A stretch of 33,359 nt of DNA, taken from NCBI GenBank assembly GCA_003209225.1, contig QCRZ01000011.1, positions 1 through 33,359 on the forward strand. The letters run 5' to 3'. This DNA comes from Pelagibacteraceae bacterium AG-464-B04 (GTDB taxonomy: Bacteria; Pseudomonadota; Alphaproteobacteria; Pelagibacterales; Pelagibacteraceae). Position numbers and translations under genes: made by a program. Shown here piece by piece: positions 5,734 through 28,512 of this stretch (its first letter is position 1; the number at the start of each line of letters is the position of its first letter). Below the pieces are notes generated by a model. That model was not told the DNA's origin and searched no databases. It worked only from the letters and a program-made list of their open reading frames with translations.

Positions 5734-5822
5734 AAGTTTAAACTATCAACAATATTAATTATTAACAATTATATTTTCAAATTAGCTAAAATATGATTAG
5801 CTTTAAAAAGAGTAAAAAATAT
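5734..5822. promoter_or_regulatory. Divergent promoter/leader between methyltransferase and bhmt
   Basis: This AT-rich stretch must hold promoters for both the minus-strand methyltransferase and bhmt. It contains the perfect 10-bp palindrome AGTTTAAACT (5735-5744) next to the methyltransferase start. Near bhmt there is a short hairpin candidate, AGCTAA-AATATGA-TTAGCT, whose loop holds the ORF-track ATG at 5793. If bhmt really starts at 5823, that hairpin lies in its leader. I cannot assign a known riboswitch class. Confidence 0.4.
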
Positions 5823-6869
5823 ATGTCAAAAAATTTAATAGAAAGACTTAATGAAGGACCAGTTCTTTGTGCAGAAGGATACCTTTTTGCAATGGAACGA
5901 AGAGGCTATTTGCAAGCTGGATCTTTTGTTCCTGAAGTTGTTTTAGAAAATCCAGAAGTTGTTTCACAATTACATAGAGAATTTATTAGAGCTGGTAGCG
6001 ATGTTGTGCAGGCATTTACTTATTATGGACACAGAGAAAAATTAAGAATAATAGGAAAAGAAAAACTTCTTGAACCGCTTCAAAAAAATGCTCTAAAAAT
6101 TGCAAAAGATGCCCGAAGTGAATTTAAAGATTTAGATTTAATGGTTTGTGGTGATGTAGCAAACACAAACATTTATGACCCAAAAGACAAAAAAAGTCTT
6201 GTTGAGTGCCAAAAAATGTTTGAGGAGCAGGTTGCATGGGCAAAAGAAGCAGAAGTTGATTTTATCATTGCCGAAACAATTACTTGGGTTGAAGAAATGA
6301 AAATCGCACTTAAAGTTATAAAAGATGCTGGACTAATTGCTGTTTGTAACTATGCATTTAGACGAGATGGCAAAACAAGAGAAGGTATTTCACCGGGCGA
6401 AGCATGTAAAGTTTTAGAAGATAATGGCGCTGATGTTGTTGGATTAAATTGTTTTAGAGGACCTAAAATGACTATAAAACTTTTACCTGAAATCAGAAAA
6501 AGTGTATCGTGCCATGTTGCAGCATTGCCTGTACCTTACAGAACAACAGAAAAAGATCCTGGTTTTTTAAATCAAACCGACGAAGGCTGTGATTGTATTC
6601 CAGGAGGTAACGCTTTTCCTGTTGCGTTAGATAATTTATATTGTAATAGATTTGAAATGGGCGAGTTTGCAAAAGAGTGTGCTAGTAAAAAAATAAATTT
6701 TATAGGAATTTGTTGTGGTGCCGAACCTCATCATGTAAGAGAAATGTCCGTTGCACTTGGCAGAAAACCAATTTCTTATAAATATTACCCTGATATGTCG
6801 AAACATTATGCACATGGTACAGATAAAACTTTAAAAAAACTTAATACTGACGCAGCCAAAACGTTATAA
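5823..6869 (+). CDS. bhmt: Betaine-homocysteine S-methyltransferase
   Basis: Transfers a methyl group from glycine betaine to homocysteine, giving dimethylglycine and methionine; a zinc enzyme. The homocysteine S-methyltransferase fold is clear from LHREFIRAGSDVVQAFTYYG near the N-terminus. The three zinc cysteines are visible in GLNCFRG and in the C-terminal pair of GICCGAEPHHVREM. The ORF track starts at 5793, but no Shine-Dalgarno precedes that ATG. The ATG at 5823 has AAAGAG about 10 nt upstream and gives MSKNLIERLNEGPVLCAEGYLFAMERRGY, which aligns with the beginning of animal BHMT ([26 protein letters not shown]), so I prefer it (348 aa). The gene begins the linear betaine pathway, with the dimethylglycine dehydrogenase 9 nt downstream. 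Confidence 0.93.
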   Translation: MSKNLIERLNEGPVLCAEGYLFAMERRGYLQAGSFVPEVVLENPEVVSQLHREFIRAGSDVVQAFTYYGHREKLRIIGKEKLLEPLQKNALKIAKDARSEFKDLDLMVCGDVANTNIYDPKDKKSLVECQKMFEEQVAWAKEAEVDFIIAETITWVEEMKIALKVIKDAGLIAVCNYAFRRDGKTREGISPGEACKVLEDNGADVVGLNCFRGPKMTIKLLPEIRKSVSCHVAALPVPYRTTEKDPGFLNQTDEGCDCIPGGNAFPVALDNLYCNRFEMGEFAKECASKKINFIGICCGAEPHHVREMSVALGRKPISYKYYPDMSKHYAHGTDKTLKKLNTDAAKTL

Positions 6870-6878
6870 ATTTAGTTG

Positions 6879-9296
6879 ATGGAAACACATGCTAAAGTAG
6901 TTGTTATTGGTGGTGGAGTAGTTGGTTGTTCTATTCTTTTTCATTTAGCAAAGTTTGGTCTTAAGGATTGTATTTTACTTGAAAGAAATGAATTAACCTC
7001 AGGTTCATCATGGCATGCAGCTGGCTCTGTGCATGCTATTTCTTCTGACCCAAATATTTCTAAATTGATGGCTTATACTATTAAACTTTATAAAGAAATC
7101 GAAGAGACGTCAGGACATTCAGTTGGATTTAAACCCAGTGGTGGTTTTTATTTAGCTTCAAACGAAGCTTGGCACGACTACCTAAAAAGAGAGAGATCAA
7201 AAGCAAGATATATGGGGTTAGATCAAGAATTTATTTCACTTGAGGAAGTAGTTAAAAAACATCCATTAATTAACCCAAAACACTATTTAGCTGCACTTTG
7301 GGACCCTATAGATGGCGAGGTAGATCCTTCAGGGGTTACTTACGCATATGCAAAATCTGCAAAAGTTCATGGAGCAAAATATTATACTCATACACCAGTT
7401 CTAGAAACTAACCAAAAAAACGACGGGACATGGGAAGTAGTAACAGAAAAAGGAAATATAAATGCAGAAATTATAATAAACGCTGGAGGGCTTTGGGCTA
7501 GAGAAGTTGGTAAATTAGCTGGTCTTAATTTGCCAGTGCAGCCTATGGAACATCACTATTTAATTACAGAGACAATACCGGAAATAAAAGAGAGAAAAAA
7601 TGAACCAAGGCTGCCAATAGGAACTGATTTTGAAGGAAATATCTATTTTAGACAAGAAGCTTATGGCATGTTACTAGGAACCTACGAATTTAAATCTACA
7701 CCGTGGCAGATAAAAAAAACACCAGTTAACTTTGGTCATGAATTATTAGAGCCTAAATTAGATAATATTCAAGATCGGCTAGAAGTTGGTTTTAAAAGAA
7801 TACCTGCTTTAGAAAAAGCTGGAATAAAAAATATCGTTAATGGACCTTTTACATTTGGTCCTGATGGAAATCCACTAATAGGACCTGTTCCAGGAAAAAA
7901 AAATTATTGGGTAGCCGTTGGTGTAATGGCAGGTTTTTGCCAAGCTGGTGGGGTAGGCAAATCTATTGCTGAATGGATTATTGATGGAGAACCATCAATT
8001 GATGTATGGGCTATGGATGTAGCACGGTTTGGAAATTATGCCTCACCACAATATGGAACCATAAAATCTTCTGAGAATTATGAACGAAGATTTATTATGA
8101 CTTTTCCAAACGAAACTTTACCAAAAGGAAGAAAACAAAAAACTACTGCTTTGTATGATCGATTAGTAGCCAGAGGAGCTGTTATGGGGGATGTTTTTGG
8201 TTTAGAAAATGCTTTATGGTTTGCAACAAATATTAAAAATGCATACGAGGAACCAACCTTTAAGCGTTCACGTTCTCATGATTATGTGAACGAAGAAGTT
8301 GAAGCTGTGAGAACTGCAGTTGGTGCGACTGAAATAGCAAATTTTGCAAAACATGAAATAACTGGACCAGGTTCAAAAAAATTTCTAGATTATGTTTTAG
8401 CAGGAAAAATACCAAAACCTGGAAGAATTATATTAACTCCCATGTTAACTCCAAAAGGAAAATTATATGGGGATTTAACTGTTGCCTGCTACAACAAAGA
8501 AAAATATATTATATATGGATCCGGTGTTGCACAAGAAATGCATCGAAGATGGTTTGAAAAATACTTACCTAAGGAAGGTGTAAATTATAAAAATCGCTCT
8601 GATGATTTTCATGGAATTGCTATATCGGGACCCAATTCACGTAAATTATTATCTCGAATATCCAGAGATGATGTTTCTGCAGAAGTTTTAAAATTTAGAG
8701 ATACAAGAGAAACATTTGTTGGGGGAGTGCCAGCTATTTTAAATAGAATATCTTTTTCAGGGGAGTTAGGATATGAAATTTATGTAGCTCCTCAATTTCA
8801 GTTAAAATTATTCGAGGAAATTGAAGCAAACGGAAAAGATCTAGGACTTAAGCTATATGGAAATCGAGCTTTAATGTCTTTAAGATTAGAAAAAAATTGG
8901 GGTGCTTGGACACTAGATTATAGACCTGATTTTACGGCAAGTGAGTCAGGCTTAGATTCTTTTATATATTGGGATAAAGATTTTGTTGGTAAAGAGGCAG
9001 CTTTAAATGAAAAAAAAAGGGGTCCTGAAAAAAAACTTGTTACAATGATTGTTGAAACAGATGATGTAGATGTCACAAATGACGAGGCTATTTTAAGAGG
9101 TAAAAAATGTATAGGTTACGTAACTTCGGGAGGTTTTGCACATCATATTAAAAAAAGTATAGCGTTTGGGTATGTGCCATTAGAATTTTCAAAACATGAA
9201 ACAGCTTTAGATATCGAAATAAATGGTAAAATTTATAATGCCAAAGTTTCTGAAAAACCTTTATACGACGCTAATGGTGGACGAATGAGAGTTTAA
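6879..9296 (+). CDS. Dimethylglycine dehydrogenase-like FAD/THF protein (copy 1)
   Basis: Two-domain enzyme of 805 aa, as expected for dimethylglycine/sarcosine dehydrogenases. The N-terminal FAD oxidoreductase domain (about 1-390) begins with VVVIGGGVVGCSILFHLAKFG and contains SGSSWHAAG, whose histidine is the covalent FAD site in the mammalian enzymes. The C-terminal GcvT/THF domain (about 420-800) includes FSGELGYEIYV and LMSLRLEKNWGAW. The ORF track begins at TTG 6876, but an ATG follows immediately at 6879 and is the likely start. Position directly after bhmt and upstream of the betaine transporter makes dimethylglycine the most likely substrate, yielding sarcosine for the adjacent Sox complex. 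Exact substrate specificity cannot be read from sequence. Confidence 0.9.
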   Translation: METHAKVVVIGGGVVGCSILFHLAKFGLKDCILLERNELTSGSSWHAAGSVHAISSDPNISKLMAYTIKLYKEIEETSGHSVGFKPSGGFYLASNEAWHDYLKRERSKARYMGLDQEFISLEEVVKKHPLINPKHYLAALWDPIDGEVDPSGVTYAYAKSAKVHGAKYYTHTPVLETNQKNDGTWEVVTEKGNINAEIIINAGGLWAREVGKLAGLNLPVQPMEHHYLITETIPEIKERKNEPRLPIGTDFEGNIYFRQEAYGMLLGTYEFKSTPWQIKKTPVNFGHELLEPKLDNIQDRLEVGFKRIPALEKAGIKNIVNGPFTFGPDGNPLIGPVPGKKNYWVAVGVMAGFCQAGGVGKSIAEWIIDGEPSIDVWAMDVARFGNYASPQYGTIKSSENYERRFIMTFPNETLPKGRKQKTTALYDRLVARGAVMGDVFGLENALWFATNIKNAYEEPTFKRSRSHDYVNEEVEAVRTAVGATEIANFAKHEITGPGSKKFLDYVLAGKIPKPGRIILTPMLTPKGKLYGDLTVACYNKEKYIIYGSGVAQEMHRRWFEKYLPKEGVNYKNRSDDFHGIAISGPNSRKLLSRISRDDVSAEVLKFRDTRETFVGGVPAILNRISFSGELGYEIYVAPQFQLKLFEEIEANGKDLGLKLYGNRALMSLRLEKNWGAWTLDYRPDFTASESGLDSFIYWDKDFVGKEAALNEKKRGPEKKLVTMIVETDDVDVTNDEAILRGKKCIGYVTSGGFAHHIKKSIAFGYVPLEFSKHETALDIEINGKIYNAKVSEKPLYDANGGRMRV

Positions 9297-9450
9297 TTGC
9301 ACTAATAGTAATTTTTTAAGCACATTTTCGAAAATAAGTGATTTGATTTAATTCAATTTCAGGTTGTTTTTTTTTTGGTTACATTTGTTCATCTAATGTG
9401 TTTAATTTAATGCACTTAAATAAATTAATTAACCAAAAGGAACAATAACA
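9297..9450 (+). promoter_or_regulatory. Upstream region of the betaine transporter operon
   Basis: This is a comparatively long 154-bp gap in a compact genome. It contains a perfect 12-bp palindrome, ATTTTCGAAAAT (9324-9335), then a near-palindrome TTGATTTAATTCAA, then a run of T residues. A weak promoter-like pair (TTGTTC near 9385, TTTAAT near 9406) precedes the transporter gene, and AAAAGGAAC supplies the ribosome-binding site. The palindromes could be operators. I found no riboswitch consensus here. Confidence 0.4.
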
Positions 9451-10473
9451 ATGAAATATATAAAAAAATTGTCTATTTCCATATTGTTCGCGTTAGGATT
9501 TACTTCTTTTAATGTAAATGCAAACGCTTATGACTGTGGAAAAGTAGTTATGGCAGACATGAATTGGGCTTCGGCTTCGTTGATGGCCAATGTAGATAAA
9601 ATTATTCTTGAAAAAGGTTGGGGTTGTGAAGTTGAGTTAATCCCAGGAGCAACGATGCCAACTTTTGCGTCAATGAATGAAAAAGGAGCGCCAGATGTTG
9701 CTGCTGAGCAATGGGCAAATGCTGTAGCTAATCCTTTAGCAAAAGCAGTAGGAGAAGGTCGTTTACATATAGCAAACGAAGCGCCTATAAAAGGTCTTGG
9801 TGAAGGATGGTGGGTAACACCGGGCACACTAAAAAGACACCCTGAGTTAAAAACTGCTTTAGATATTTTAGCTCATCCAGAATTATTTCCAGATGCAGAA
9901 GATTCTTCAAAAGGTGCATTCGTTGGTTGCCCTGCAGGTTGGGGTTGTCAATTAGCAAATGCTAATCTTTTCAGAGCTTTCGAAATGGAAAATAAAGGTT
10001 GGGTATTAGTTGATCCTGGTTCTGCGGCAGGACTTGATGGTTCTATAGCTAAAGCAGCTGAAAGTGATAAAAATTGGTTTGGCTATTATTGGAATCCGAC
10101 AGCAATCATAGGTAAATACGGTATGGTGCCAATGGATTTTGGAGTTCCATTTGCTGGATCTGAAAATTGGGATGGCTGTATAGTAAAACCAGAACAAGAA
10201 TGTGCTGATCCAAAACCATCTGCATGGACACAGTCAGTTGTTAATACGGTAGTTACAGATAAATTTAAAAAAAATGCTGGAAAACACGTTATGAAATTTT
10301 TATCTAAACGAACGTATCCTGGAGAAGTTATGAACGCTATGCTTGTTTATATGCAAGACGAACAAGCTGAGGGCGCTGATGCAGCTATACATTTTTTAAA
10401 GAATCATGAAGACGTATGGACTGCTTGGCTTGGAGATGCTGTAGGAAATAAAGTTAGACAAGGAATTAAGTAA
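9451..10473 (+). CDS. Glycine betaine/TMAO-type ABC transporter substrate-binding protein
   Basis: Periplasmic OpuAC-family binding protein of 340 aa. The first about 26 residues form a classical signal peptide (two lysines, a hydrophobic core ISILFALGFTSF, then NVNANA before the mature protein). The mature part has the aromatic residues that cage trimethylammonium groups in this family (candidates in MNWASASL, EQWANAV, EGWWVTPG and GYYWNPTA) and paired cysteines in GCPAGWGCQLANANLFRAF. A strong AAAAGGA ribosome-binding site precedes the ATG. Gene order binding protein-permease-ATPase is like marine TmoXWV systems rather than E. coli proVWX. The adjacent bhmt/dmgdh/sox genes favour glycine betaine as a main ligand, but TMAO or choline cannot be excluded. 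Confidence 0.92.
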   Translation: MKYIKKLSISILFALGFTSFNVNANAYDCGKVVMADMNWASASLMANVDKIILEKGWGCEVELIPGATMPTFASMNEKGAPDVAAEQWANAVANPLAKAVGEGRLHIANEAPIKGLGEGWWVTPGTLKRHPELKTALDILAHPELFPDAEDSSKGAFVGCPAGWGCQLANANLFRAFEMENKGWVLVDPGSAAGLDGSIAKAAESDKNWFGYYWNPTAIIGKYGMVPMDFGVPFAGSENWDGCIVKPEQECADPKPSAWTQSVVNTVVTDKFKKNAGKHVMKFLSKRTYPGEVMNAMLVYMQDEQAEGADAAIHFLKNHEDVWTAWLGDAVGNKVRQGIK

Positions 10474-10497
10474 GAGACTTTGATTATTTAAATTTTT

Positions 10498-10536
10498 TAA
10501 CAAACCTATTAACTAAAAATGTTAGTAGGTTTGTTA
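10498..10536 (+). repeat. Long intercistronic hairpin between binding protein and permease genes
   Basis: Inverted repeat TAACAAACCTATTAAC / GTTAGTAGGTTTGTTA with a 7-nt loop (TAAAAAT). All 16 positions pair, one of them as a G-U wobble in RNA. It has no T tract after it; the T run is before it. A canonical intrinsic terminator is therefore unlikely. Stem-loops after the binding-protein gene commonly protect the upstream mRNA so that more binding protein than permease is made, and that is the likely role here. Confidence 0.8.
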
Positions 10537-10560
10537 TGTGTATCATATAAATAGGTAAAA

Positions 10561-11445
10561 ATGGATTTTTTTGCTGACTTTCCCACAATGGAACGCCAAG
10601 ATTTGCGCGATTTTAAAAAATTCATAGATTTTGCTTTTAGATCATTTGCACGTACTTATGGCGATGCTATTGAGTCTTTTTTTCATCCACTGTTAATGTT
10701 TTTAGTTTGGTTAGAAAAACTAATGATAAACACACCTTGGCCAATAGTTATTATGGCTATTGCAGGATTAGCTTGGTTGGGTTCAAGGAGCTGGAAATTA
10801 GTTTTGGGAACGATCATCTCATTTTTAGTTATCGGATATTTTGGAATGTGGAAAGATACAATGGCAACAATGGCAATCATTGCAGTTGCTACAATCGTAT
10901 GTATTGGTGTTGGTATACCTTTTGGAATACTAATGGCACGATCAAATCGTATACAATCAATAATAACTCCAGTTTTAGATGTAATGCAAACAATCCCAAG
11001 TTTTGTTTACTTAATTCCAATACTTATGCTTTTAGGCATTGGTAAGGTACCAGGTCTTATTGCTGTTTGTATTTATGCAATTCCTCCTATTGTACGCTTA
11101 ACAAACCTAGGAATTCGTGAGGTAGATAAAGAAGCTTTGGAAGCTATAGATGCATTCGGTGCTACAACATGGCAAAGATTAACAAAAGTTCAAATTCCTC
11201 TTGCTTTACCAACTATTTTTGCTGGTGTTAACCAAACTATTATGATGGCACTCGCAATGGTAGTTATTGCTTCTATGATAGGAGTTAAAGGTTTAGGAGT
11301 GCCCGTGCTTCGTGCAATATCAAATCAATACTTAGCGCTGGGATTAATGAATGGGTTAGCCATTGTAGCATTAGCTATTATATTTGATAGGGTTTGCCAA
11401 CACTATGGAAAAAGAATTCAAAAACATCGAGAAGGCAAACATTAA
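10561..11445 (+). CDS. Glycine betaine-type ABC transporter permease (ProW-like)
   Basis: Inner-membrane permease of a ProU/OpuA/Tmo-type importer, 294 aa. Several hydrophobic segments are visible (WPIVIMAIAGLAWLG, LVLGTIISFLVIGYFGMW, MATMAIIAVATIVCIGVGIPFGIL, FVYLIPILMLLGIG, IMMALAMVVIASMIGVKGLG, GLMNGLAIVALAIIFD). The cytoplasmic EAA coupling loop is EAIDAFGATTWQRLTKVQIPLALPTI, and the N-terminal soluble extension is typical of ProW. AGGT sits 5 nt before the ATG. The stop codon overlaps the ATPase ATG by one base (TAATG). Confidence 0.93.
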   Translation: MDFFADFPTMERQDLRDFKKFIDFAFRSFARTYGDAIESFFHPLLMFLVWLEKLMINTPWPIVIMAIAGLAWLGSRSWKLVLGTIISFLVIGYFGMWKDTMATMAIIAVATIVCIGVGIPFGILMARSNRIQSIITPVLDVMQTIPSFVYLIPILMLLGIGKVPGLIAVCIYAIPPIVRLTNLGIREVDKEALEAIDAFGATTWQRLTKVQIPLALPTIFAGVNQTIMMALAMVVIASMIGVKGLGVPVLRAISNQYLALGLMNGLAIVALAIIFDRVCQHYGKRIQKHREGKH

Positions 11446-12467
11446 TGAGCGCAATCAAAATTAAAATTGATTCCTTATATAAAATTTTTGGAAAAAATCC
11501 TAAGGAAGCGATTGAGCATGTAAAAAGTGGTATTGGCAAAGATGAGCTTTTAGAAAAACATAATCATGTCTTAGGACTTCAAGATATTAATCTTGATATA
11601 TATGAAAAAAATATTCAAGTAATTATGGGTTTATCTGGATCTGGAAAATCTACTTTAATCAGACATATTAATCGCCTTATAGAACCTACCGAAGGGAAAA
11701 TCAAAGTAGATGAGTTTGATGTTATGGATTATGACAAAAATGCTTTAAGAAAATTTAGAAGGCAAAAAACTGCAATGGTTTTCCAGCGTTTTGCTTTAAT
11801 GCCTCATCTTACTGTTATTAAAAATGTTTGTATTGGATTAGATATGCAAGGAATTAACCCTGATGAAAGTAAAAAAAGATCAAAACATTGGATTGAGAAA
11901 GTTGGCTTAAATGGTTACGAAGAAAGGTACCCACAACATTTATCAGGTGGAATGCAACAACGTGTTGGACTTGCTAGAGCATTAACCAATGATGCGGATA
12001 TTCTATTAATGGATGAAGCCTTTAGTGCTTTAGACCCTTTAATTAGAAAAGATATGCAGGACATACTTTTAAATCTTCAATCTGAACTAAACAAAACAGT
12101 AGTCTTTATTACCCATGATCTAGATGAAGCTTTGAAGTTAGGTGATAGAATAGCAATACTCAAAGATGGTAGAATGGATCAAGAAGGTTTGCCAGCAGAT
12201 ATTTTATTAAACCCAAAAACAGATTATGTAAAAAGATTTGTAGAAGATGTAAATCGCCCCCGTGTTCTTAGAGCAAAAAATATTATGGAAAAAGTAAACG
12301 GACAAGATCTATCGAACGCTATTATAGTTGATGAAAATGATTTTATTGAGTCCTTTATAGACAAGGTTCTCATAAAACAACCATCCATAATTATAGTAAA
12401 AAATAAAGAAAATAAAGGTGAGGGGTATATATCTCCACAAAGACTTTCTAATATTTTAAAAAAGTAA
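11445..12467 (+). CDS. Glycine betaine-type ABC transporter ATPase (ProV-like)
   Basis: ATP-binding subunit of the importer, 340 aa. Walker A is GLSGSGKST, the ABC signature is LSGGMQQR, Walker B is ILLMDEAFSALD, and the switch histidine is in FITHDLDEAL. The ORF track uses a TTG at 11394 that lies inside the permease gene. The ATG at 11445 overlaps the permease stop by one base and starts the conserved sequence (KIKIDSLYKIFGKNPKEA), so I use it. The tail after about residue 270 is only about 70 aa and resembles a shortened CBS region rather than the two full CBS domains of osmosensing OpuA/ProV, suggesting weak or absent ionic-strength gating. Confidence 0.93.
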   Translation: MSAIKIKIDSLYKIFGKNPKEAIEHVKSGIGKDELLEKHNHVLGLQDINLDIYEKNIQVIMGLSGSGKSTLIRHINRLIEPTEGKIKVDEFDVMDYDKNALRKFRRQKTAMVFQRFALMPHLTVIKNVCIGLDMQGINPDESKKRSKHWIEKVGLNGYEERYPQHLSGGMQQRVGLARALTNDADILLMDEAFSALDPLIRKDMQDILLNLQSELNKTVVFITHDLDEALKLGDRIAILKDGRMDQEGLPADILLNPKTDYVKRFVEDVNRPRVLRAKNIMEKVNGQDLSNAIIVDENDFIESFIDKVLIKQPSIIIVKNKENKGEGYISPQRLSNILKK

Positions 12468-15136: not shown

Positions 15137-15742
15137 ATGCAGTCACTTAGTGAAATTGACACAACATCAAAAAGAGCATCTAAGGCTGCTGGTTTTTCTT
15201 GGGGTATCGCAGAAGAAATAGGTAAAGCTATTAGAAATTTAGAACTATTTGGTTTACCAGGCATTATAAATTTAAATTTATATTTAAAAAAAATAAAAAA
15301 AAAACACCCTGAAAAGTTAAAAAAAATAGAGAAAGAAAATAAAAATAAAGAATTATGTCCAATTTATTGTGGTGTTGCTTTTTTAGATCAATGTAAGCAT
15401 TTAGAAACTTTAAGAACTATTAAATTTTATAATATTAACTATCCTATGTTAATCTTACCTTTTGTCAGTAAAGCCTCTGAGATTTTGGGAAAAAAAATAT
15501 TAATACAGTATAATAAATCTAGTTTTCTTGTTAATTTTAATAAATCCATTTTATCTAAAAATATAGAAACACAAATTGTCACCTTAGCTAATGAGATTAG
15601 TATTGTTTTTTTAGAAAATAAAAATTCATTTTCGGATCAAGAATGGAAGGAGATTTATAAGCTTTCCGAAGAAACTTTCGTTGAAGAGTCTGAAAGTTTA
15701 AAAACAAAAGGTGCTGGTGCTGGTCTAACCGATAACGATTAG
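15137..15742 (+). CDS. DUF3726-like protein
   Basis: A 201-aa protein beginning SLSEIDTTSKRASKAAGFSWGIAEEIGKAIRNLELFGLPG, which matches my memory of the DUF3726 pattern of 'SlnEie..akrAarGaG.swGlAEEagkAtrwL...GldG'. The molecular function of that family is unknown. The middle is lysine-rich and degenerate, followed by CPIYCGVAFLDQ and a region with LILPFVSKASEILGKKILIQYN. The ATG lies 2 nt after the stop of the 556-aa unknown gene, so they are almost certainly co-translated. The acidic C-terminal tail ends GAGAGLTDND. It has no signal peptide. Confidence 0.75.
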   Translation: MQSLSEIDTTSKRASKAAGFSWGIAEEIGKAIRNLELFGLPGIINLNLYLKKIKKKHPEKLKKIEKENKNKELCPIYCGVAFLDQCKHLETLRTIKFYNINYPMLILPFVSKASEILGKKILIQYNKSSFLVNFNKSILSKNIETQIVTLANEISIVFLENKNSFSDQEWKEIYKLSEETFVEESESLKTKGAGAGLTDND

Positions 15743-20989: not shown

Positions 20990-22219
20990 TCATGCTTTAA
21001 TTTTTTTTATTCTACTCCCTACACCATACTCTTCTTTTTTATTAAAATCTTTACTATTTAATTTAGAAAGTTCTTTAATTCTAAGGCCATTAGTATCTAT
21101 AGTAGGTGAGCCATTTTTTATCATTCCTTGATGTCTAGAATACACTGCTTTCTTTTTATTAACCTGATGGGGTTGGAAATCATCAATATCTTCTATTTTT
21201 AATTTATCTCCAATATGAATAAAACCAGCTTTGGCTGCGTCATTCATCAAATCTAATCCTTTTTTTGTTCTAATAATTGCGGCGTTGAAACCTTCATCTT
21301 CTCCTTTAGGTGAACCACCTCTCCAAGTATCCAAAGCAGCTACGTCTGCGCTTTCACCAATGGCGTCGGGACATATTTTACATCTGAAAGGAACTCTCCA
21401 TGTAGATTCTTCTCCCCAAAAAGAATTATATTCTCTATCATATTCACGGCCATCTTTTGTTTTGATGTACATTCTGCCAGGATTTCCAAATCCTCTATAT
21501 CTAAAGATAGACAATTCATCTTCTTTAACCTTAAAGCTTTCAATAAAATCTTGCGCTTTTGTAAATTCTGCAAAGCCTCCACAGACTAAGGTTAGCAAAT
21601 ATTTACAAAGTTCGTTTACTCTAGAATCAGTTTTAGATAGCAGTCTGATTGCACTGATATCACAAGGTTTACCAACAAAAGCAAAAGGTTGGTTTAAATC
21701 AAGCGCTTCATGAAATCTGTCCAAAGGTGCTGCGGGTCCATACCTTGATCTACTTTCACCGCCTAAAAGTTCTTCTTTATTATAACTAAATTTACACAAA
21801 CTACGCATCGGTTTTTTTGGATCAGCAGCTGTATGCATAATAAATTTAACTTTTTTAGATTCGAGCAAGTAAATGGATAAGCCATTGAGCAAACCACCTG
21901 TCGAACTTTCAAATCTTATTTTTTTATCAGTAGACCAGGTATAACAAAGAGATAAATAATAACCCCAAACAAGATTATGTTTAGTACTTTGATCAACGTT
22001 TTCTTTTGGAAGACCCTCAACAATCGTGCCAGGACAAACATTACGTATTTTTTCAAATATTTCTGGTGTAATTTTACTGATTTCCTTTGGTTCAAGTCTT
22101 CCCTTTGAGGTCATAGAAATTTCAATTTTATCTTTCCCAGTAATACTTTGACAAAGGCCACAACCAATGCAAAGACCATTATCAACTATATCTGACAGTT
22201 GATTTACTGAACGATTCAT
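20990..22219 (-). CDS. FrhB/FdhB-family iron-sulfur flavoprotein
   Basis: A 409-aa protein of the coenzyme F420 hydrogenase/dehydrogenase beta-subunit family, which combines FAD and 4Fe-4S clusters for electron transfer between ferredoxin-like carriers and a small-molecule acceptor. The N-terminal cluster motif is CIGCGLC (about residues 17-23). The family core is visible in IRFESSTGGLLNGLSIYLLE, SRYGPAAPL, FVGKPCDISAIRLL and VCGGFAE. The second cluster region is VPFRCKICPDAIGESADVAALDTWRGG. Bacterial members often do not use F420. It is the last gene of the five-gene operon led by the Rieske oxygenase and could be its electron donor, or could reduce a pathway intermediate. Both roles are inference. 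Confidence 0.85.
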   Translation of the reverse strand: MNRSVNQLSDIVDNGLCIGCGLCQSITGKDKIEISMTSKGRLEPKEISKITPEIFEKIRNVCPGTIVEGLPKENVDQSTKHNLVWGYYLSLCYTWSTDKKIRFESSTGGLLNGLSIYLLESKKVKFIMHTAADPKKPMRSLCKFSYNKEELLGGESRSRYGPAAPLDRFHEALDLNQPFAFVGKPCDISAIRLLSKTDSRVNELCKYLLTLVCGGFAEFTKAQDFIESFKVKEDELSIFRYRGFGNPGRMYIKTKDGREYDREYNSFWGEESTWRVPFRCKICPDAIGESADVAALDTWRGGSPKGEDEGFNAAIIRTKKGLDLMNDAAKAGFIHIGDKLKIEDIDDFQPHQVNKKKAVYSRHQGMIKNGSPTIDTNGLRIKELSKLNSKDFNKKEEYGVGSRIKKIKA

Positions 22220-22225
22220 TAAAAA

Positions 22226-22963
22226 TTAATTTTTATAAGACGGATCAATTTTTTCACACTTACGCTTTAATGCGGGCCATTCATTTATTCCAGGTGCAAA
22301 AGCTTCATATTGTTTTTGAGATTGTTCCCAAAAAGTTTTTTCTGCATAATCCAATTTGAGACCAGAACCTTGTGCATTGACTGCAACTTCACACATGCGG
22401 ATTGCATAATACATATTCATAAAAGCTTCTCCTGCAGTTTCGCCCACAGTAAGCAATCCATGATTACGCATAATTAAAACTTTATTGTCACCAAGATGTT
22501 TCGCAATTCTATGTCTTTCATCAATATCAACTGAAAGACCTTCCCAATCATGATAGCCAACTTTACCATAAAGCATTGAAGAATCTTGAACTAAGTGAGG
22601 TATACCATCTTTAAGTGCTGTAGCTGCAAGTGCAGTCGGTGGGTGAGTATGAAATACAAATTTATTTTTTGGATGGTTTAAATGAACCGCACTATGAATA
22701 ACAAATCCCGCAGTATTAACATCTGAAGGACCCTCTATAACTTTACCGTTTTCATCTACTTTAATAAGATTTGATGCTGTTACCTCTTCGTACAAAAGTC
22801 CAAAACGATGCATAAAAAAAGTGTGATCAGTACCAGGAGTTCTAGCTGTTATATGATTCCACACAGTATCATCCCACCCCATCATGTGAGTAAGACGATA
22901 CATGGCAGCAAGATCAACCCTTACTTCCCATTCTTCAGCACTAATATCGTTTCGTATATTCAT
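22226..22963 (-). CDS. Class II aldolase/adducin-fold protein
   Basis: A 245-aa protein of the class II aldolase/adducin head domain family. Zinc-binding histidines are visible in FHTHPPTALAA (H-x-H) and RNHGLLTVGETAGEAF. At the position where fuculose-phosphate aldolase has its catalytic glutamate (PSSE...) this protein has PSDVNTAGFVIHSAVH, with no acidic residue aligned, as in the adducin-like branch. A retro-aldol reaction on a phosphorylated sugar is therefore unlikely; lyase, decarboxylase or other metal-dependent chemistry is possible. It is separated from its operon neighbours by 2 and 6 nt. Confidence 0.87.
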   Translation of the reverse strand: MNIRNDISAEEWEVRVDLAAMYRLTHMMGWDDTVWNHITARTPGTDHTFFMHRFGLLYEEVTASNLIKVDENGKVIEGPSDVNTAGFVIHSAVHLNHPKNKFVFHTHPPTALAATALKDGIPHLVQDSSMLYGKVGYHDWEGLSVDIDERHRIAKHLGDNKVLIMRNHGLLTVGETAGEAFMNMYYAIRMCEVAVNAQGSGLKLDYAEKTFWEQSQKQYEAFAPGINEWPALKRKCEKIDPSYKN

Positions 22964-22965
22964 GT

Positions 22966-23817
22966 TTAGTCAGCTAAGCCGTCTGGTCTAGCTTTATTTC
23001 TTTCTATATGAATTGGTAATACTTTTCCATATATAGCTTTTGAATGTTCAGGAGTATTTACTCTCCAAGGATCCAAAACATAAGCCGGTATACAAAGGTA
23101 TCTGGAATGATTTCCTTCTATTTTTGTAACACGATGAAGTGTAAATCGTCCTTTAAATATTTGAAGGTCACCTGGTTCTAATTTTAATTGACGAACTCTT
23201 TTACGGTCTCCATCAAGTACTTTTTTAACTTCTTCCAAATTTTCATTTCCTGGTTCGCGTATGTTTGGGCAATATTCAAATATTCCACCTTTCTCAGGTT
23301 TTTGTATCATGAAACTTAAAGTAAACTCACAACTATCGAAATGCCATGGAAGAATACCGTCTGGTTTCATAACATTATAAGCGTGACAAGCTAAAGGATC
23401 GGCCCATCGATAAATTGGCGACATTCCAAGACAAGCGGACACAAAATTTAAAAGTTCATCTTGTTCATAAAGAAATTTCATCTCTGAATCTTTTGGAAAA
23501 ACATCCGAGTTTAAATATCCATTATAACGATCCATAAATATTCTTTTTGGATGATCTTTAGGTAAGGAAGGATCGTCTTTTGAATATAAATATGCGTTTA
23601 TATTTTGTTTTGACATATAAACTTCATCGAGTTGTTTTTCTAACTCTGTATTCATTATTTTTAAAGAATTGGGTAAAATAAAATTAGGAATAGTAACACA
23701 ACTAAACTGATCTAAATCACTTTTACATTTTTTTATTAATTCTTTTATTGATGGAGAATTTAAATCTTGGATTGGATATTTTTTAAGATCGACAATAGTT
23801 TCTAATCTATTATTCAT
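22966..23817 (-). CDS. Fe(II)/2-oxoglutarate-dependent oxygenase (phytanoyl-CoA hydroxylase-like)
   Basis: A 283-aa putative non-haem iron oxygenase. The iron-binding facial triad is visible: H-x-D in WHFDSCEFTLSFMIQ and the distal histidine in LHRVTKIEGNHSRY, where the arginine 11 residues later would bind the 2-oxoglutarate carboxylate. The retained aspartate argues for hydroxylation rather than halogenation. The supporting core is LKLEPGDLQIFKGRFTLHRV. The substrate is unknown. It sits between the class II aldolase-fold gene (2 nt) and the M24 gene (6 nt), so it should act on the same compound as its operon partners. Confidence 0.85.
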   Translation of the reverse strand: MNNRLETIVDLKKYPIQDLNSPSIKELIKKCKSDLDQFSCVTIPNFILPNSLKIMNTELEKQLDEVYMSKQNINAYLYSKDDPSLPKDHPKRIFMDRYNGYLNSDVFPKDSEMKFLYEQDELLNFVSACLGMSPIYRWADPLACHAYNVMKPDGILPWHFDSCEFTLSFMIQKPEKGGIFEYCPNIREPGNENLEEVKKVLDGDRKRVRQLKLEPGDLQIFKGRFTLHRVTKIEGNHSRYLCIPAYVLDPWRVNTPEHSKAIYGKVLPIHIERNKARPDGLAD

Positions 23818-23823
23818 TTTTAA

Positions 23824-25059
23824 TTACAAATCTTCTAATGGATGATGAGACATTAACTCAAGTCCATTTTCGCCAACTAAATATTGTTGTTCTAGTTTTA
23901 CTCCTTCTTTACCACTGACTTTTCCGATGTAAGATTCAACTGTAATAGTCATATTTTTTTCAAAACAACCTTCTCTTTGACCACCATCAGTTGGGTATCT
24001 TATCATTGGCCATTCATCACAAAGACCGATTCCGTGAACCATACATGAATATCTATTTCCATAATATTCTTCTGGAAGTTTCCATGATTTTTCAGTGAAT
24101 TCTTTAAAAGACGTTCCAGGTTTTATTAATCTAGAATTATGGTTTATATGTTCAACAGCCATTAAATATAATTTTTTCTGCTCTTCATTAAATTTGTGGC
24201 TTTCAACAAAAGAACGAGAAATATCTGCACAATAACCGTAAGGGCCAACCATATCAGTATCAAAAGATACCATTTCTCCACTTTGAATAATTTTGTTGCT
24301 ACTTTCTTGCATCCAAGGATTTGTTCTTTGACCTGAAGATAAAATTCTGCATTCAATCCATTCACCACCATGTTCAATATTAGTTTTGTGTAAGATCGAC
24401 CAAAGCTCGTCTTCAGTCATTCCTGCTTTTAATTCTTCTCTCATTTTGTTAATGCCAATTTCGCAAACCTCAATTGCAGCTTTCATGCATTTTAGCTCAT
24501 CTGGTGATTTAATGACTCTAGCTTGTTCAAGAACCAATTTAGCATCAACTACCTCAATTCCTACATTATTCAAAGCTGTTACAGCAGGACCATTAACAAC
24601 ATCAATCGCTATTTTTCTATTTTTAAAGAATGAATTAGATAAATCTTTAATTTCATTAATCCATTTTTTCAATTGGGTTCCCGCTTGATCTCCATTACTA
24701 AAATAATCCCAAGTTATTGCAGGCCTTATTTCATCAATCAAATTTAAGTGTTTAGATAATCCCTCACAATTAAAATATTCATAAAGAATTATAGGTCCGT
24801 TAACAGGCACAAAACAATAACGAGTTAAATTATGCATATTATAAACGCTCATGTTAACCGTATCTAGTGCATATCTAACATTAACAGGGTCAAATAATAT
24901 ACAAGCTTCAAGATTATTTTTTTCTAACTCTTTTTTTACTCTATCTAATCTATAAGATCTAAGTTTAGTAAAATCTATTTCATCTTCTTTTAATCTTTTC
25001 TTTGTTATAAAATTTGAAAGAGGTTTTGTATTCGGGGAAATTTTTCTTTTAAACTTCAT
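23824..25059 (-). CDS. M24 metallopeptidase-fold enzyme resembling DddP/creatinase
   Basis: A 411-aa protein of the M24 pita-bread fold with the creatinase-type N-terminal domain. Metal ligands can be read as Asp residues in FDTDMVGPYGYCADISR, the His in VHGIGLCDEWP, and Glu residues in TVESYIG and KLEQQ. The DTD arrangement, GGEWIECRILSSGQRTNPWMQES, and the aspartate six residues after the metal His in HGIGLCD resemble the DMSP lyase DddP more than ordinary Xaa-Pro peptidases. From memory, that aspartate corresponds to the DddP catalytic base. Related M24 enzymes include creatinase and ectoine hydrolase, so cleavage of a C-N or C-S bond in an osmolyte is plausible. Operon context (Rieske oxygenase 1 nt upstream) argues against simple peptide processing. 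True DddP activity is unproven. Confidence 0.8.
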   Translation of the reverse strand: MKFKRKISPNTKPLSNFITKKRLKEDEIDFTKLRSYRLDRVKKELEKNNLEACILFDPVNVRYALDTVNMSVYNMHNLTRYCFVPVNGPIILYEYFNCEGLSKHLNLIDEIRPAITWDYFSNGDQAGTQLKKWINEIKDLSNSFFKNRKIAIDVVNGPAVTALNNVGIEVVDAKLVLEQARVIKSPDELKCMKAAIEVCEIGINKMREELKAGMTEDELWSILHKTNIEHGGEWIECRILSSGQRTNPWMQESSNKIIQSGEMVSFDTDMVGPYGYCADISRSFVESHKFNEEQKKLYLMAVEHINHNSRLIKPGTSFKEFTEKSWKLPEEYYGNRYSCMVHGIGLCDEWPMIRYPTDGGQREGCFEKNMTITVESYIGKVSGKEGVKLEQQYLVGENGLELMSHHPLEDL

Positions 25060-25060
25060 A

Positions 25061-26257
25061 TTAAACCAGATTGGTTGCTATCCATTTATGAAAATGATGA
25101 GTAGGATTATCCATAACAGGTGAAAAATTACCACCATTATAGGAAGGTGAATTTCTTCCTTCTTGCATTCCCTCGATAATACCTACATCTTCTGACTGTA
25201 CACCATGCCAAAGTTTCATATTCTGTTTTCTTAAATTTTTGAATTTTTTTGAGTTAGCAGCTGCATTTCTTACATAATAAATTTCCATATGCTCAATAGT
25301 AAATTCATGATTAACTGGTTCCAGCCAATAAGCATAATAGTGATCTTTATGTATTCCAAGCATTACGTTTGGAAAGAGAGCAACATACTCAGCAATATTT
25401 AATTTATCTTTTGGCCAGTTTGGAAAACATGGAAATTTAAGTTTACCTTTAAATCTTGGATTGTAAACAACAGTACCTTGTCCAGCAAATCTATTAGGCA
25501 AACCTTCGATGTGATAATGATCACTAATTTTAGAGTAAGAATTTAATCCTGGATGCACCCATGGAAGGTGATAGCTTTCACAATAATTTTCAATTGCAAA
25601 CTTCCAATTACATTTGGCTGTTAATTTAAAATAACCAAAATCTTTTGAATGTTGAATCAATTTTTGATCTTTTTCTGACCAAAATTTAGACCAACGATCT
25701 TGTAAAGGTTTAATATATTGTTCAAAAGGAATCTCATTATTAGAAATGTTTACCATAATCATGTCTAGCCAAAGATATGAACGAATTTCTTTAAGTCCGC
25801 TTTTATCTTTATTAAAATCTTTAGATTCATGCTTGTTCATTCCACCCAAATGAGGAGTAGCTACTAGCTTTCCTTCAAGATTATAGGACCAAGAATGATA
25901 AGGGCATCTTAATAGATTTTTAATAGAACATTTTTTTTGTAGAATTCTATAACCTCTGTGACTACAAACATTGTGATAAACTCTAATTTGATTTTTATTA
26001 GTTCTTAATAAAATCAAAGGAATTCCTAGCAAATCAAAAGGTTTTGCGTCCCCTAGATTGGGAATTGAGCTAGCAACACCAACAACTACCCACTTATCTT
26101 CAAATATTTTTTTTCTCTCTATATATGTATATTCTTTGCTATTATAGCATTCATTAGGAAGGCCATGAGCTTTACTAATAGGTTTGTTTACAACATCAAG
26201 TTTTTCTTTATTTATAATGTCATAAATATTTCCGTGACCATTAGCCTTCGAATTCAT
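25061..26257 (-). CDS. Rieske-type oxygenase, quaternary-ammonium/N-demethylase class
   Basis: Catalytic alpha subunit of a ring-hydroxylating-type oxygenase, 398 aa. The Rieske 2Fe-2S motif is C-x-H-x17-C-x2-H (VCSHRG...CPYHSW). The mononuclear iron site is ENYCESYHLPWVHP, with the third carboxylate ligand probably in QSEDVGIIEGMQEG. The bridging position before the first iron His holds Glu rather than the usual Asp, as in oxygenases that demethylate or cleave quaternary amines (carnitine, glycine betaine, stachydrine types). This is the first gene of the five-gene minus-strand operon. Its start codon lies inside a perfect inverted repeat. No conventional ferredoxin-NAD reductase partner is encoded in the window. 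Confidence 0.88.
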   Translation of the reverse strand: MNSKANGHGNIYDIINKEKLDVVNKPISKAHGLPNECYNSKEYTYIERKKIFEDKWVVVGVASSIPNLGDAKPFDLLGIPLILLRTNKNQIRVYHNVCSHRGYRILQKKCSIKNLLRCPYHSWSYNLEGKLVATPHLGGMNKHESKDFNKDKSGLKEIRSYLWLDMIMVNISNNEIPFEQYIKPLQDRWSKFWSEKDQKLIQHSKDFGYFKLTAKCNWKFAIENYCESYHLPWVHPGLNSYSKISDHYHIEGLPNRFAGQGTVVYNPRFKGKLKFPCFPNWPKDKLNIAEYVALFPNVMLGIHKDHYYAYWLEPVNHEFTIEHMEIYYVRNAAANSKKFKNLRKQNMKLWHGVQSEDVGIIEGMQEGRNSPSYNGGNFSPVMDNPTHHFHKWIATNLV

Positions 26258-26309: not shown

Positions 26310-26351
26310 TTCTGGACATCCCCATAGTTACGCTGGTATATCCCGGTGATT

Positions 26352-27080
26352 ATGAATTTTTCATTAGAGATTACTATAAAGACTGATCTATCAGACCTGC
26401 CTAAGGTAAAAGATGTATATATTACGATGTTACCCGGTGATGATTTTAAAATGGTAGCAAACAAAGCTAAAGAATTGGCACAATCAGGTTTTAATCCAGT
26501 GCCTCATTTTCCAGCACGATCAATAAAAAATATGGCTGAATTAAAAGATTTTGTGAATAGAAGTAAAGATGGAGGCATAAAACAAGCTCTTGTAATAGGG
26601 GGTAGTGCGCAACCTGTTGGAGATTTTCATTCTTCTCTCCAGTTATTAGAGACAGGATTATTCGAGGGGTTGAAGATAGGAATTGCTGGACATCCAGATG
26701 GGTCCCCTGATATATCCGACTCAGATTTAGAAAAAGCTATGATTAGTAAAAAACCTTATGCAGACTATATAGTTACTCAATGGTTATTAAACACCAATTC
26801 TATAGCTGAGTTTGTTTCTAAACAAACGTTACCAGTTCATGTGGGAATTACTGGGCCTTTAAAAATAAGCAGTTTGCTTAAATTTGCTAATATTGTTGGG
26901 GCAAAAAATTCTATTAATTTTCTTAAATCTAACGCAACAAAAGCTATAGATTTATTAAAACCAAGAGACCCAAATAACATAATAGAAAAACTTAAAGGAA
27001 AAACAGAGAATTTTCATATTTATACTTTTGGCGGTCTAAAAGAAACTAACAAATGGTTAATGGAGAATAATTATGCCTAA
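26352..27080 (+). CDS. Short MetF-like methylenetetrahydrofolate reductase homologue
   Basis: A 242-aa protein of the MetF TIM-barrel superfamily, shorter than housekeeping MetF (about 290-300 aa). Recognisable segments are FSLEITIKTD near the start, GFNPVPHFPARSIKN, KQALVIGGSAQPVGDFHSSLQLLETG, IGIAGHPDGSPDI, DYIVTQWLLNT, and LPVHVGITGPLKISSLLKFANIVG. Such short homologues are expected to bind THF derivatives and flavin. It probably interconverts methyl- and methylene-THF after methyl transfer by the overlapping downstream gene. The ORF track uses a GTG at 26346; the ATG at 26352 two codons later is preferred. It overlaps the next gene by 8 nt. Confidence 0.85.
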   Translation: MNFSLEITIKTDLSDLPKVKDVYITMLPGDDFKMVANKAKELAQSGFNPVPHFPARSIKNMAELKDFVNRSKDGGIKQALVIGGSAQPVGDFHSSLQLLETGLFEGLKIGIAGHPDGSPDISDSDLEKAMISKKPYADYIVTQWLLNTNSIAEFVSKQTLPVHVGITGPLKISSLLKFANIVGAKNSINFLKSNATKAIDLLKPRDPNNIIEKLKGKTENFHIYTFGGLKETNKWLMENNYA

Positions 27081-28512
27081 AAAAAAGAAAAAAAATAAAT
27101 TAAAAAAAAAGAAAAAAGCAAAATTAATATTATTAAAAAACAATAAAACTGAAAAAGTTAATTATGATAAAGTAAAACATGCTACATCAGTAGATCAATC
27201 TGATAGAATGGTTCCTTATAATTTAAGACAAAGTGGCCCAACTAAAGTAGAGCTGTTGATTTCAACAAGAGTTAGAAAATCACCGTATTGGCATTTGTCA
27301 ATGAAAGCAGGCTGTTGGAGAGCAACTGTTTATAATCGTGTTTACCATCCCAGAGGTTATGTAAGACCTGAAAAAGGAGGAGCCATGGTTGAATATGCGG
27401 CAATTAAGAATCATGTAACCATGTGGAATGTAGCTGTTGAAAGGCAAATTCGAGTTAAAGGACCAGATGCAGAAAAGTTTACAGATTACGTAATAACGCG
27501 TGATGCAACTAAAATTTCAACAATGAGAGGTCGTTACGTTATTCTTTGCAATAACAAAGGTGGCGTTTTAAATGATCCAGTTTTACTAAGAGTAGCTGAT
27601 GATGAGTTTTGGTTTAGTTTATCTGATTCTGATATTGGAATGTACTTACAAGGTGTTAATGCTGATAAAAGATTCAATGTAGAAATAGACGAAATAGATG
27701 CGTGCCCGGTTCAAATACAAGGTCCTAAATCAAAAGCATTAATGAATGATTTAATTGGAGATCAAGTTGATTTAGACAATATGCCTTTTTATGGTTTGGC
27801 CGAAGCTAACGTAGGAGGTAGAAGCTGTGTGATTTCTCAATCAGGATTTTCTGGTGAGGCCGGATATGAAATTTATCTTCGTGATGCCACTTTATATGCA
27901 GAAGACATGTGGAATGCAGTGCTTAAAGCTGGAAAAAAACATAAATTAATGGTTATTGCGCCAGCTCATCACAGAAGAATCCAAGCAGGAATATTATCCT
28001 GGGGTCAGGATATGGATAATGAACATAATGCTTTTCAATGTAACTTGGGTTATCAAGTTTCTTTATCAGGAAAAGGTCAATGGGATAAAAAAACTGATTA
28101 TGTCGGTAAAGAAGCTTTAGAAAAAATGAAGAATGAAATTATTAATGGAAAAAAACCTTACAAACTTCAACTTGTAGGTTTGGAATTGGGTGGAAAACCA
28201 ATAGAAGAGTATGCACCAGACTTTTGGTTAATCTCAGATGTCAAAGGAGGGGGTAAACCAATTGGTTATATTACTTCACCCTGGTATCATCCAGAGAAGA
28301 AGAAAAATATTGCTATGGGTTATGTTCCTTACGAAGGACACAAAAATTCAAAAGGATTTCCTACTGGTAATTTTGGTAAAAAATATAAAGTACACTTGCC
28401 AAAAAAATATTCTAGTAAACCCGTTGATGCAGTTGTTGTGCCAATACCGTTTACTCAATCATTTAACGCAAATACTAGGGAATCAGAAGTTTTAGCTACT
28501 TTGAATAAATAA
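27073..28512 (+). CDS. GcvT/DmdA/LigM-related THF-dependent methyltransferase
   Basis: A 479-aa member of the aminomethyltransferase family that includes GcvT, the DMSP demethylase DmdA and the aryl-O-demethylase LigM; these transfer a methyl or methylene group from substrate to tetrahydrofolate. Family marks are VWNVAVERQIRVKG-like MWNVAVERQIRVKGPDAEKFTDYVITRD, DEFWFSLSDSDIGMYLQG, PVQIQGPKSKALM, SGFSGEAGYEIYL, and the tail AVVVPIPFTQSFNANTRES. It is longer than DmdA (about 370 aa) and close to LigM in size and C-terminal ending. The first 45 residues are an unusual lysine-rich extension before MVPYNLRQSGPTKVELL. It overlaps the MetF-like gene, so the pair probably forms a demethylation and C1-oxidation unit serving the divergent Rieske/M24 operon. 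Confidence 0.87.
   Translation: MPKKKKKNKLKKKKKAKLILLKNNKTEKVNYDKVKHATSVDQSDRMVPYNLRQSGPTKVELLISTRVRKSPYWHLSMKAGCWRATVYNRVYHPRGYVRPEKGGAMVEYAAIKNHVTMWNVAVERQIRVKGPDAEKFTDYVITRDATKISTMRGRYVILCNNKGGVLNDPVLLRVADDEFWFSLSDSDIGMYLQGVNADKRFNVEIDEIDACPVQIQGPKSKALMNDLIGDQVDLDNMPFYGLAEANVGGRSCVISQSGFSGEAGYEIYLRDATLYAEDMWNAVLKAGKKHKLMVIAPAHHRRIQAGILSWGQDMDNEHNAFQCNLGYQVSLSGKGQWDKKTDYVGKEALEKMKNEIINGKKPYKLQLVGLELGGKPIEEYAPDFWLISDVKGGGKPIGYITSPWYHPEKKKNIAMGYVPYEGHKNSKGFPTGNFGKKYKVHLPKKYSSKPVDAVVVPIPFTQSFNANTRESEVLATLNK

Follow-up and report, generated by a model that had tools for sequence, protein, structure and literature searches.

A putative DddP sister enzyme of the M24 fold encoded next to a Rieske oxygenase in SAR11 bacteria

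Introduction

For the DMSP lyase DddP it has been proposed that the DMSP carboxylate is bound on iron, that Asp377 takes the alpha proton and that dimethyl sulfide then leaves (PMC5395565); the roles of the active-site residues have been described (PMC4108388). Among the Rieske non-haem iron oxygenases that act on quaternary-ammonium compounds (group V), some members carry a pair of cysteines (Cys-X-X-Cys) beside the mononuclear iron (PMC10952381). In SAR11, it has been speculated that SAR11_1264/1265 of strain HTCC1062 might serve a second step of DMSP demethylation (PMC3160333). A literature search, covering mainly openly accessible journal papers, found no relevant description of a SAR11 Rieske-M24 operon, of homarine genes or of M24-MttB clusters.

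Here we describe a DddP-like gene on a contig of a SAR11 genome. An earlier note, made from the letters of the same DNA, had recognised DddP motifs in its product and placed it in a SAR11-type genome, and had left it open whether the protein was a true DMSP lyase or a sister enzyme acting on another osmolyte.

Results

Active-site residues of the M24 protein

The gene lies on the minus strand of the window, i.e. the whole stretch of 33,359 nucleotides that was analysed:

23824..25059, minus strand: M24-fold enzyme of the DddP superfamily, predicted DddP sister lineage, 411 aa (ORF, Pfam, NCBIfam, phmmer, trees, alignment)

The plus-strand frame at this position is full of stops, and the minus-strand ORF is open over the 411 codons. 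The product matched Peptidase_M24 (Pfam, E = 2e-32), and a phmmer search of solved structures returned DddP first (4rzy, E 8.5e-83), followed by the aminopeptidases as the next family (4e-18). All the motifs noted earlier were located: the GGEWIE/RTNPW segment, GGEWIECRILSSGQRTNPW, at residues 231-249, FDTD...C-ADISR at residues 266-282 and HGIGLCDEWP at residues 342-351.

Alignment with DddP (4RZY numbering) showed that the metal ligands Asp295, Asp297, Asp307, His371, Glu406 and Glu421 correspond to D267, D269, D279, H342, E375 and E390, so that 6/6 are kept. Tyr366 corresponds to Y337 and the catalytic base Asp377 to D348, which is the Asp of the HG.GLCDEWP segment to which the earlier note had given that role. 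The metal ligands and Tyr366 were identical in every group sampled (DddP, SAR11, family f32, the Rieske-linked Rhizobium/Paraburkholderia proteins, the MttB-linked proteins and 14 others), and the Asp377 equivalent was kept in all rows of the superfamily alignment but two, both among the 'other' rows. Because nearly all members of the superfamily, those of Rieske- and MttB-linked operons included, have these eight residues for catalysis and metal binding, as judged from the alignment they are not diagnostic of a DMSP lyase; the motifs lose the value that had been given to them as a pointer to that activity.

The DddP-clade marker positions Ala103 and Phe155, a criterion derived in the present analysis and not a published one, are Tyr81 and Trp133 in the M24 protein, and Tyr and Trp in nearly all non-DddP rows. 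Residue Glu349, seven residues past the ligand His, is Glu throughout the superfamily. The M24 protein had been remarked upon as shorter than DddP; its length proved normal for the non-DddP members, which mostly have about 400-430 aa (DddP-clade members, 431-473 aa). An AlphaFold model computed with 30 SAR11 homologues as input was poor (mean pLDDT 57).

Profile scores and phylogeny

The NCBIfam DddP model NF043017 gave 359.7 bits (E 2e-107), below its cut-off of 600. Prolidase/aminopeptidase equivalog models gave 50-69 bits (cut-offs 390-630), and two models of the ectoine hydrolase DoeA gave 34.7 bits (cut-off 575) and 22.6 bits (cut-off 613).

In a 72-row maximum-likelihood tree, obtained by a quick search, the protein fell into a SAR11 clade which three f32 genomes joined with full support. 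The structures 4RZY and 4B28, the annotated Oceanisphaera DddP and the 787-bit copies of SAR11 family f2 formed a separate, fully supported clade, and the host genome's two other M24 proteins were placed far outside the DddP superfamily (branch 4.4). A 35-row tree gave the same split; forcing SAR11 and DddP together cost 60 log-likelihood units (AU p = 0.00013). In a 130-row FastTree the SAR11/f32 clade lay within a 26-row group (support 0.95) that also took in the Rieske-linked proteins of Rhizobium and Paraburkholderia and several proteins linked to MttB or BHMT. We are unsure of this wider grouping, since the 35-row tree failed to recover it.

Compared with DddP of Ruegeria lacuscaerulensis (4RZY) and Roseobacter denitrificans (4B28), the M24 protein shares the fold family by sequence over ~380 residues, the six metal ligands, Tyr366, Asp377 and the GGEWIE and RTNPW segments, but it differs in overall identity (35% to crystallised DddP), in its separate clade, in the Tyr/Trp pair replacing Ala103/Phe155, in a shorter N-terminus and in its operon. 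By profiles, alignment and trees the protein is assigned to the DddP superfamily, and not to the Xaa-Pro peptidases; the phylogeny, which the earlier note had proposed as a check, thus did not give the placement among Xaa-Pro aminopeptidases that would have spoken against the note. Its suggestion of a DddP relative within the creatinase/ectoine hydrolase superfamily, in a SAR11 genome, is correct. On the same grounds the protein is classified as a member of a DddP sister group, not as DddP itself. Of the two alternatives left by the note, the evidence favours the sister enzyme with some other osmolyte as its substrate; a true DddP is unsupported, given the score below the cut-off, the position outside the clade and the AU test.

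A five-gene operon in a glycine-betaine island

The M24 gene is the second of five minus-strand genes, separated by gaps of 1, 6, 2 and 6 bp, the Rieske gene ending 1 bp before the M24 gene. In operon order its partners, and the features around them, are:

25061..26257, minus strand: Rieske non-haem iron oxygenase alpha subunit, quaternary-ammonium (group V) type, gene 1 (Pfam Ring_hydroxyl_A and Rieske; PDB matches)
22966..23817, minus strand: Fe/2-oxoglutarate dioxygenase related to HalD/BesD-WelO5, HxD (hydroxylase) not HxG (halogenase) (domain and structure matches)
22226..22963, minus strand: class II aldolase/adducin family, PRK07044 subfamily (278 bits, cut-off 207)
20990..22219, minus strand: FrhB/FdhB-like iron-sulfur flavoprotein, last gene (domain matches; 49% identity to a Pseudomonas plasmid gene)
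19201..20637, plus strand: aldehyde dehydrogenase, downstream of the operon end (profile matches)
5793..12467, plus strand: glycine-betaine island with BHMT-like, DMGDH-like and glycine-betaine ABC transporter genes
26346..27080, plus strand: MetF-like protein, divergent neighbour of the operon (weak MTHFR match, E 9.5e-5)
27073..28512, plus strand: DmdA-related GcvT-family protein (238 bits, cut-off 410)

The operon is nested in a glycine-betaine catabolic island. The operon, its conservation and this nesting were absent from the earlier note. The aldehyde dehydrogenase may or may not be part of the same system. The window also holds a gene for a 556-aa protein with no NCBIfam match (13464-15134, plus strand), which lies downstream of the genes for the betaine transporter and for a predicted peptidase and is directly followed by a 201-aa ORF (15137-15742, plus strand).

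The best full-length PDB match of the Rieske protein was the carnitine monooxygenase CntA, followed by the stachydrine demethylase Stc2 (3vca), and these are its closest solved relatives. It has the bridging Glu (CntA Glu205), which replaces the usual Asp, in ENYCESYH, three residues ahead of the Fe-ligand His; both the quaternary-amine relatives and the bridging Glu place it in group V. It differs from CntA/Stc2 in that the Cys206/Cys209 pair is absent (Ser and Leu instead; ESYHL, compared with ECYHC in the Rhizobium/Paraburkholderia partners) and no reductase gene is linked to it. A search of 21 SAR11 relatives for a GbcB-like reductase found none. The FrhB-like protein was considered as a general electron donor of the Rieske enzyme and ruled out, being present in only 9/92 SAR11 loci. 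The Fe/2-oxoglutarate dioxygenase is a distant relative of BesD/HalD.

DMSP-related neighbours

The earlier statement that the gene is not part of a recognisable DMSP cluster holds with a qualification. In line with what had been noted, the 33 kb contig has no recognised gene for acrylate or 3-hydroxypropionate, but the divergent neighbours of the operon are the MetF-like and DmdA-related genes. The true DmdA of the host genome is encoded on another contig (536 bits). The MetF-like/DmdA-related pair is present in most SAR11 loci and, by synteny alone, probably corresponds to SAR11_1264/1265.

An AcuI/YhdH-type gene was found nowhere in the host genome, which is 63% complete. In G389, a relative of the same genus, such a gene is found at a distance of some 13 kb from M24, a position that in the window would fall beyond the end of the contig. 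As AcuI/YhdH genes also occur in SAR11 genomes without the M24 gene, we take this proximity as neutral with regard to a DMSP lyase role.

Distribution among SAR11

The M24 type of the window was found in 97/397 genomes of the SAR11 order, about a quarter of the sample, all of family f1 (about 254-391 bits, the lowest scores being contig-end fragments). True DddP occurred in 15/397 genomes, of family f2, at about 787 bits, and no scores fell between the two types.

M24 and Rieske genes were found together in 90/92 SAR11 loci, which also held the dioxygenase (71/92), DMGDH (76/92), BHMT (71/92) and the betaine ABC transporter (60/92); aldolase and FrhB genes were rarer (9-10/92). In some loci BHMT and DMGDH lie between the Rieske and M24 genes; the genes therefore stay together through rearrangement. 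Fuller operons (L036, L114) add an L-carnitine-dehydrogenase-like (LcdH-like) gene (354-360 bits, cut-off 414), which the window lacks. In L036, a single-cell genome, a small kinase, two autotransporter-domain proteins and a nucleotidyltransferase-like protein are encoded between the M24 and dioxygenase genes (6428-11730).

Two SAR11 f2 loci, L125 and L126, carry the true DddP gene (787 bits) with gamma-butyrobetaine-dioxygenase-like, second TauD-family and L-carnitine-dehydrogenase-like genes, and also a BKACE gene, an acetoacetate-CoA ligase, BHMT and DMGDH. This DddP locus looks like a carnitine-to-glycine-betaine cluster.

Relatives outside SAR11

A plasmid of Pseudomonas sp. MPC6 carries a PhyH-PhyH-M24-FrhB module near a betaine ABC transporter, the FrhB gene lying directly 3' of the M24 homologue. 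Its products are similar to those of the window (identity 53 and 46% for the hydroxylase, 49% for M24, 49% for FrhB), but the 17 kb read there include neither a Rieske oxygenase nor a class II aldolase gene.

Rhizobium plasmids and one Paraburkholderia plasmid have Rieske, GbcB-like reductase and M24 genes in a row; Caballeronia has the same three genes arranged divergently. Like the window, the Rhizobium/Paraburkholderia operons pair a quaternary-amine Rieske oxygenase with an M24 protein, which falls in the same superfamily branch in one tree (0.95). They differ in that the M24 proteins are 42-46% identical and the Rieske proteins only about 28-34%, and in that their Rieske protein has the Cys-X-X-Cys pair and its own reductase gene, unlike that of the window. 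The Rieske-dioxygenase-M24 trio was found again, within about 6 kb, in genome G683.

Other M24 relatives adjoin genes for MttB-family methyltransferases, DMGDH, sarcosine oxidase, BMT or mandelate-racemase-family proteins, and a dioxygenase gene adjoins M24 in five other genomes. In a class-wide sample of Alphaproteobacteria, a dioxygenase gene within 1 kb of an M24 gene was observed 6 times (0.09 expected), and MttB within 10 kb for at least 19 M24 genes (2.1 expected), in counts taken by eye from tables and under a Poisson model that ignores shared ancestry. These MttB-linked genes represent 16 neighbourhoods in 14 genomes, some of them tandem. On two Rhodobacteraceae plasmids (L202:6613-9185 and L207:6613-9185) an M24 homologue follows fatty-acid-desaturase-like and Rieske-type ferredoxin genes, near a guanidino-oxopentanoate decarboxylase gene; these homologues are possibly a further subfamily.

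An N-demethylation gene was found within 8 kb of 30/93 non-DddP loci outside SAR11 and of 3/16 DddP loci, a difference that was not significant (Fisher p = 0.38), partly owing to the small DddP set, which includes SAR11 f2. Two thirds of the non-DddP loci outside SAR11 had none of the tested demethylation markers. Because of these loci, and because the contrast with the DddP loci was not significant, the M24/DddP superfamily is probably functionally mixed.

Discussion

We propose, with about even confidence, that the M24 protein is a dimeric di-iron DddP-sister enzyme that catalyses a step in the breakdown of a zwitterionic quaternary-ammonium osmolyte, which would feed the glycine-betaine/dimethylglycine/sarcosine route of SAR11. 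The relationship of the Rieske partner to CntA and Stc2, the retention of the gene group in SAR11, the LcdH-like gene of the fuller operons and the return of similar gene pairs in unrelated genomes speak for this role; the missing GbcB-like reductase and the many non-DddP loci that show no N-demethylation gene speak against it. The Rieske enzyme would remove a methyl group or cleave an onium compound, and the Fe/2-oxoglutarate enzyme would hydroxylate the carbon skeleton. The M24 enzyme would bind the substrate carboxylate on its two metals, and Asp348 (DddP Asp377) would act as the base, so that a nitrogen leaving group is expelled by beta-elimination, in analogy to the release of dimethyl sulfide by DddP. 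The substrate could be the osmolyte itself or its breakdown product; candidates are beta-hydroxylated or carnitine-like betaines and (hydroxy)proline betaine.

DddP-like chemistry on an onium compound appears the most economical inference because the residues are the same as in DddP, and both the enzymes encoded alongside and the betaine island around the operon suggest a nitrogenous leaving group or product; the adjacent demethylases are also compatible with M24 acting upstream or downstream of the onium step. Carnitine was considered as the substrate from the LcdH-like genes of L036 and L114 and set aside, the window being without that gene. Hints toward (hydroxy)proline betaine came from a Rhizobium 4-hydroxyproline epimerase (575 bits, cut-off 376), an FAD oxidase that Rhizobium and f32 clusters have in common and a DapA-family gene in an f32 cluster, but none of the f32 genes reached the cut-off of a hydroxyproline model and the assignment was judged too thin.

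The M24 protein could instead be a functional DMSP or DMSOP lyase, a divergent DddP with which SAR11 cleaves DMSP to DMS and acrylate. DMSP is taken up together with glycine betaine in seawater, and the true DddP of SAR11 f2 also adjoins BHMT and DMGDH genes, so that a betaine setting agrees with this role too; so do the DmdA-related diverging neighbour, the AcuI/YhdH gene of the same-genus relative and the retained metal ligands, Tyr366 and Asp377. We nevertheless consider it unlikely: the protein scores under the DddP cut-off and branches outside the verified clade, Tyr81/Trp133 ally it with nearly all non-DddP members, the genes that share its operon suggest nitrogenous osmolytes, the contig has no recognised acrylate gene, and its relatives occur in bacteria of soil and plants, settings in which DMSP plays a minor part. 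A hydrolase that cuts an amide or related C-N bond, and so supplies glycine betaine, dimethylglycine, sarcosine or an N-methyl amino acid to the adjoining demethylation genes, seems a less remote alternative, though still a doubtful one. Most M24 enzymes are hydrolases, its relatives creatinase and ectoine hydrolase act on osmolytes, and pairing with demethylation chemistries as varied as Rieske, MttB and BHMT is what would be expected of a supplier to demethylases. The sixth metal ligand and the Asp377 equivalent of DddP are kept, however, Glu349 stands where M24 peptidases have their second active-site His, seven residues past the ligand His, and the ectoine hydrolase models reach at most 35 bits.

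Relatives of the protein are usually annotated 'Xaa-Pro peptidase family protein', and weak prolidase model matches accord with the label; the protein is nonetheless highly unlikely to be a conventional Xaa-Pro aminopeptidase or dipeptidase, as those matches fall far below the equivalog cut-offs, the host's two other M24 proteins lie far outside the superfamily and DddP is inactive on Val-Pro (PMC5395565).

Beyond the preferred role in quaternary-ammonium catabolism, we offer a broader reading only tentatively: DddP may be one offshoot of a wider M24 superfamily that serves mainly for the breakdown of quaternary-ammonium osmolytes, and SAR11 may possess a Rieske/Fe-2-oxoglutarate/M24 C-N lyase-or-hydrolase pathway that turns a marine betaine into glycine-betaine intermediates.

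The M24 gene is genuine and conserved, and it tells more than the earlier note had drawn from it; as a DMSP lyase it is at best a candidate. SAR11 bacteria are the most abundant heterotrophs of the ocean. The gene matches DddP strongly enough (phmmer E about 1e-82, a value that varies with database size) to pass published survey cut-offs, namely E < 1e-70 (PMC5395565) and the E < 1e-80 of an earlier GOS search (described in PMC4304780). Counted as DMS-producing, it could inflate estimates of DMS release by SAR11. If the module degrades another osmolyte, it would represent an unrecognised source of nitrogen and carbon for SAR11.
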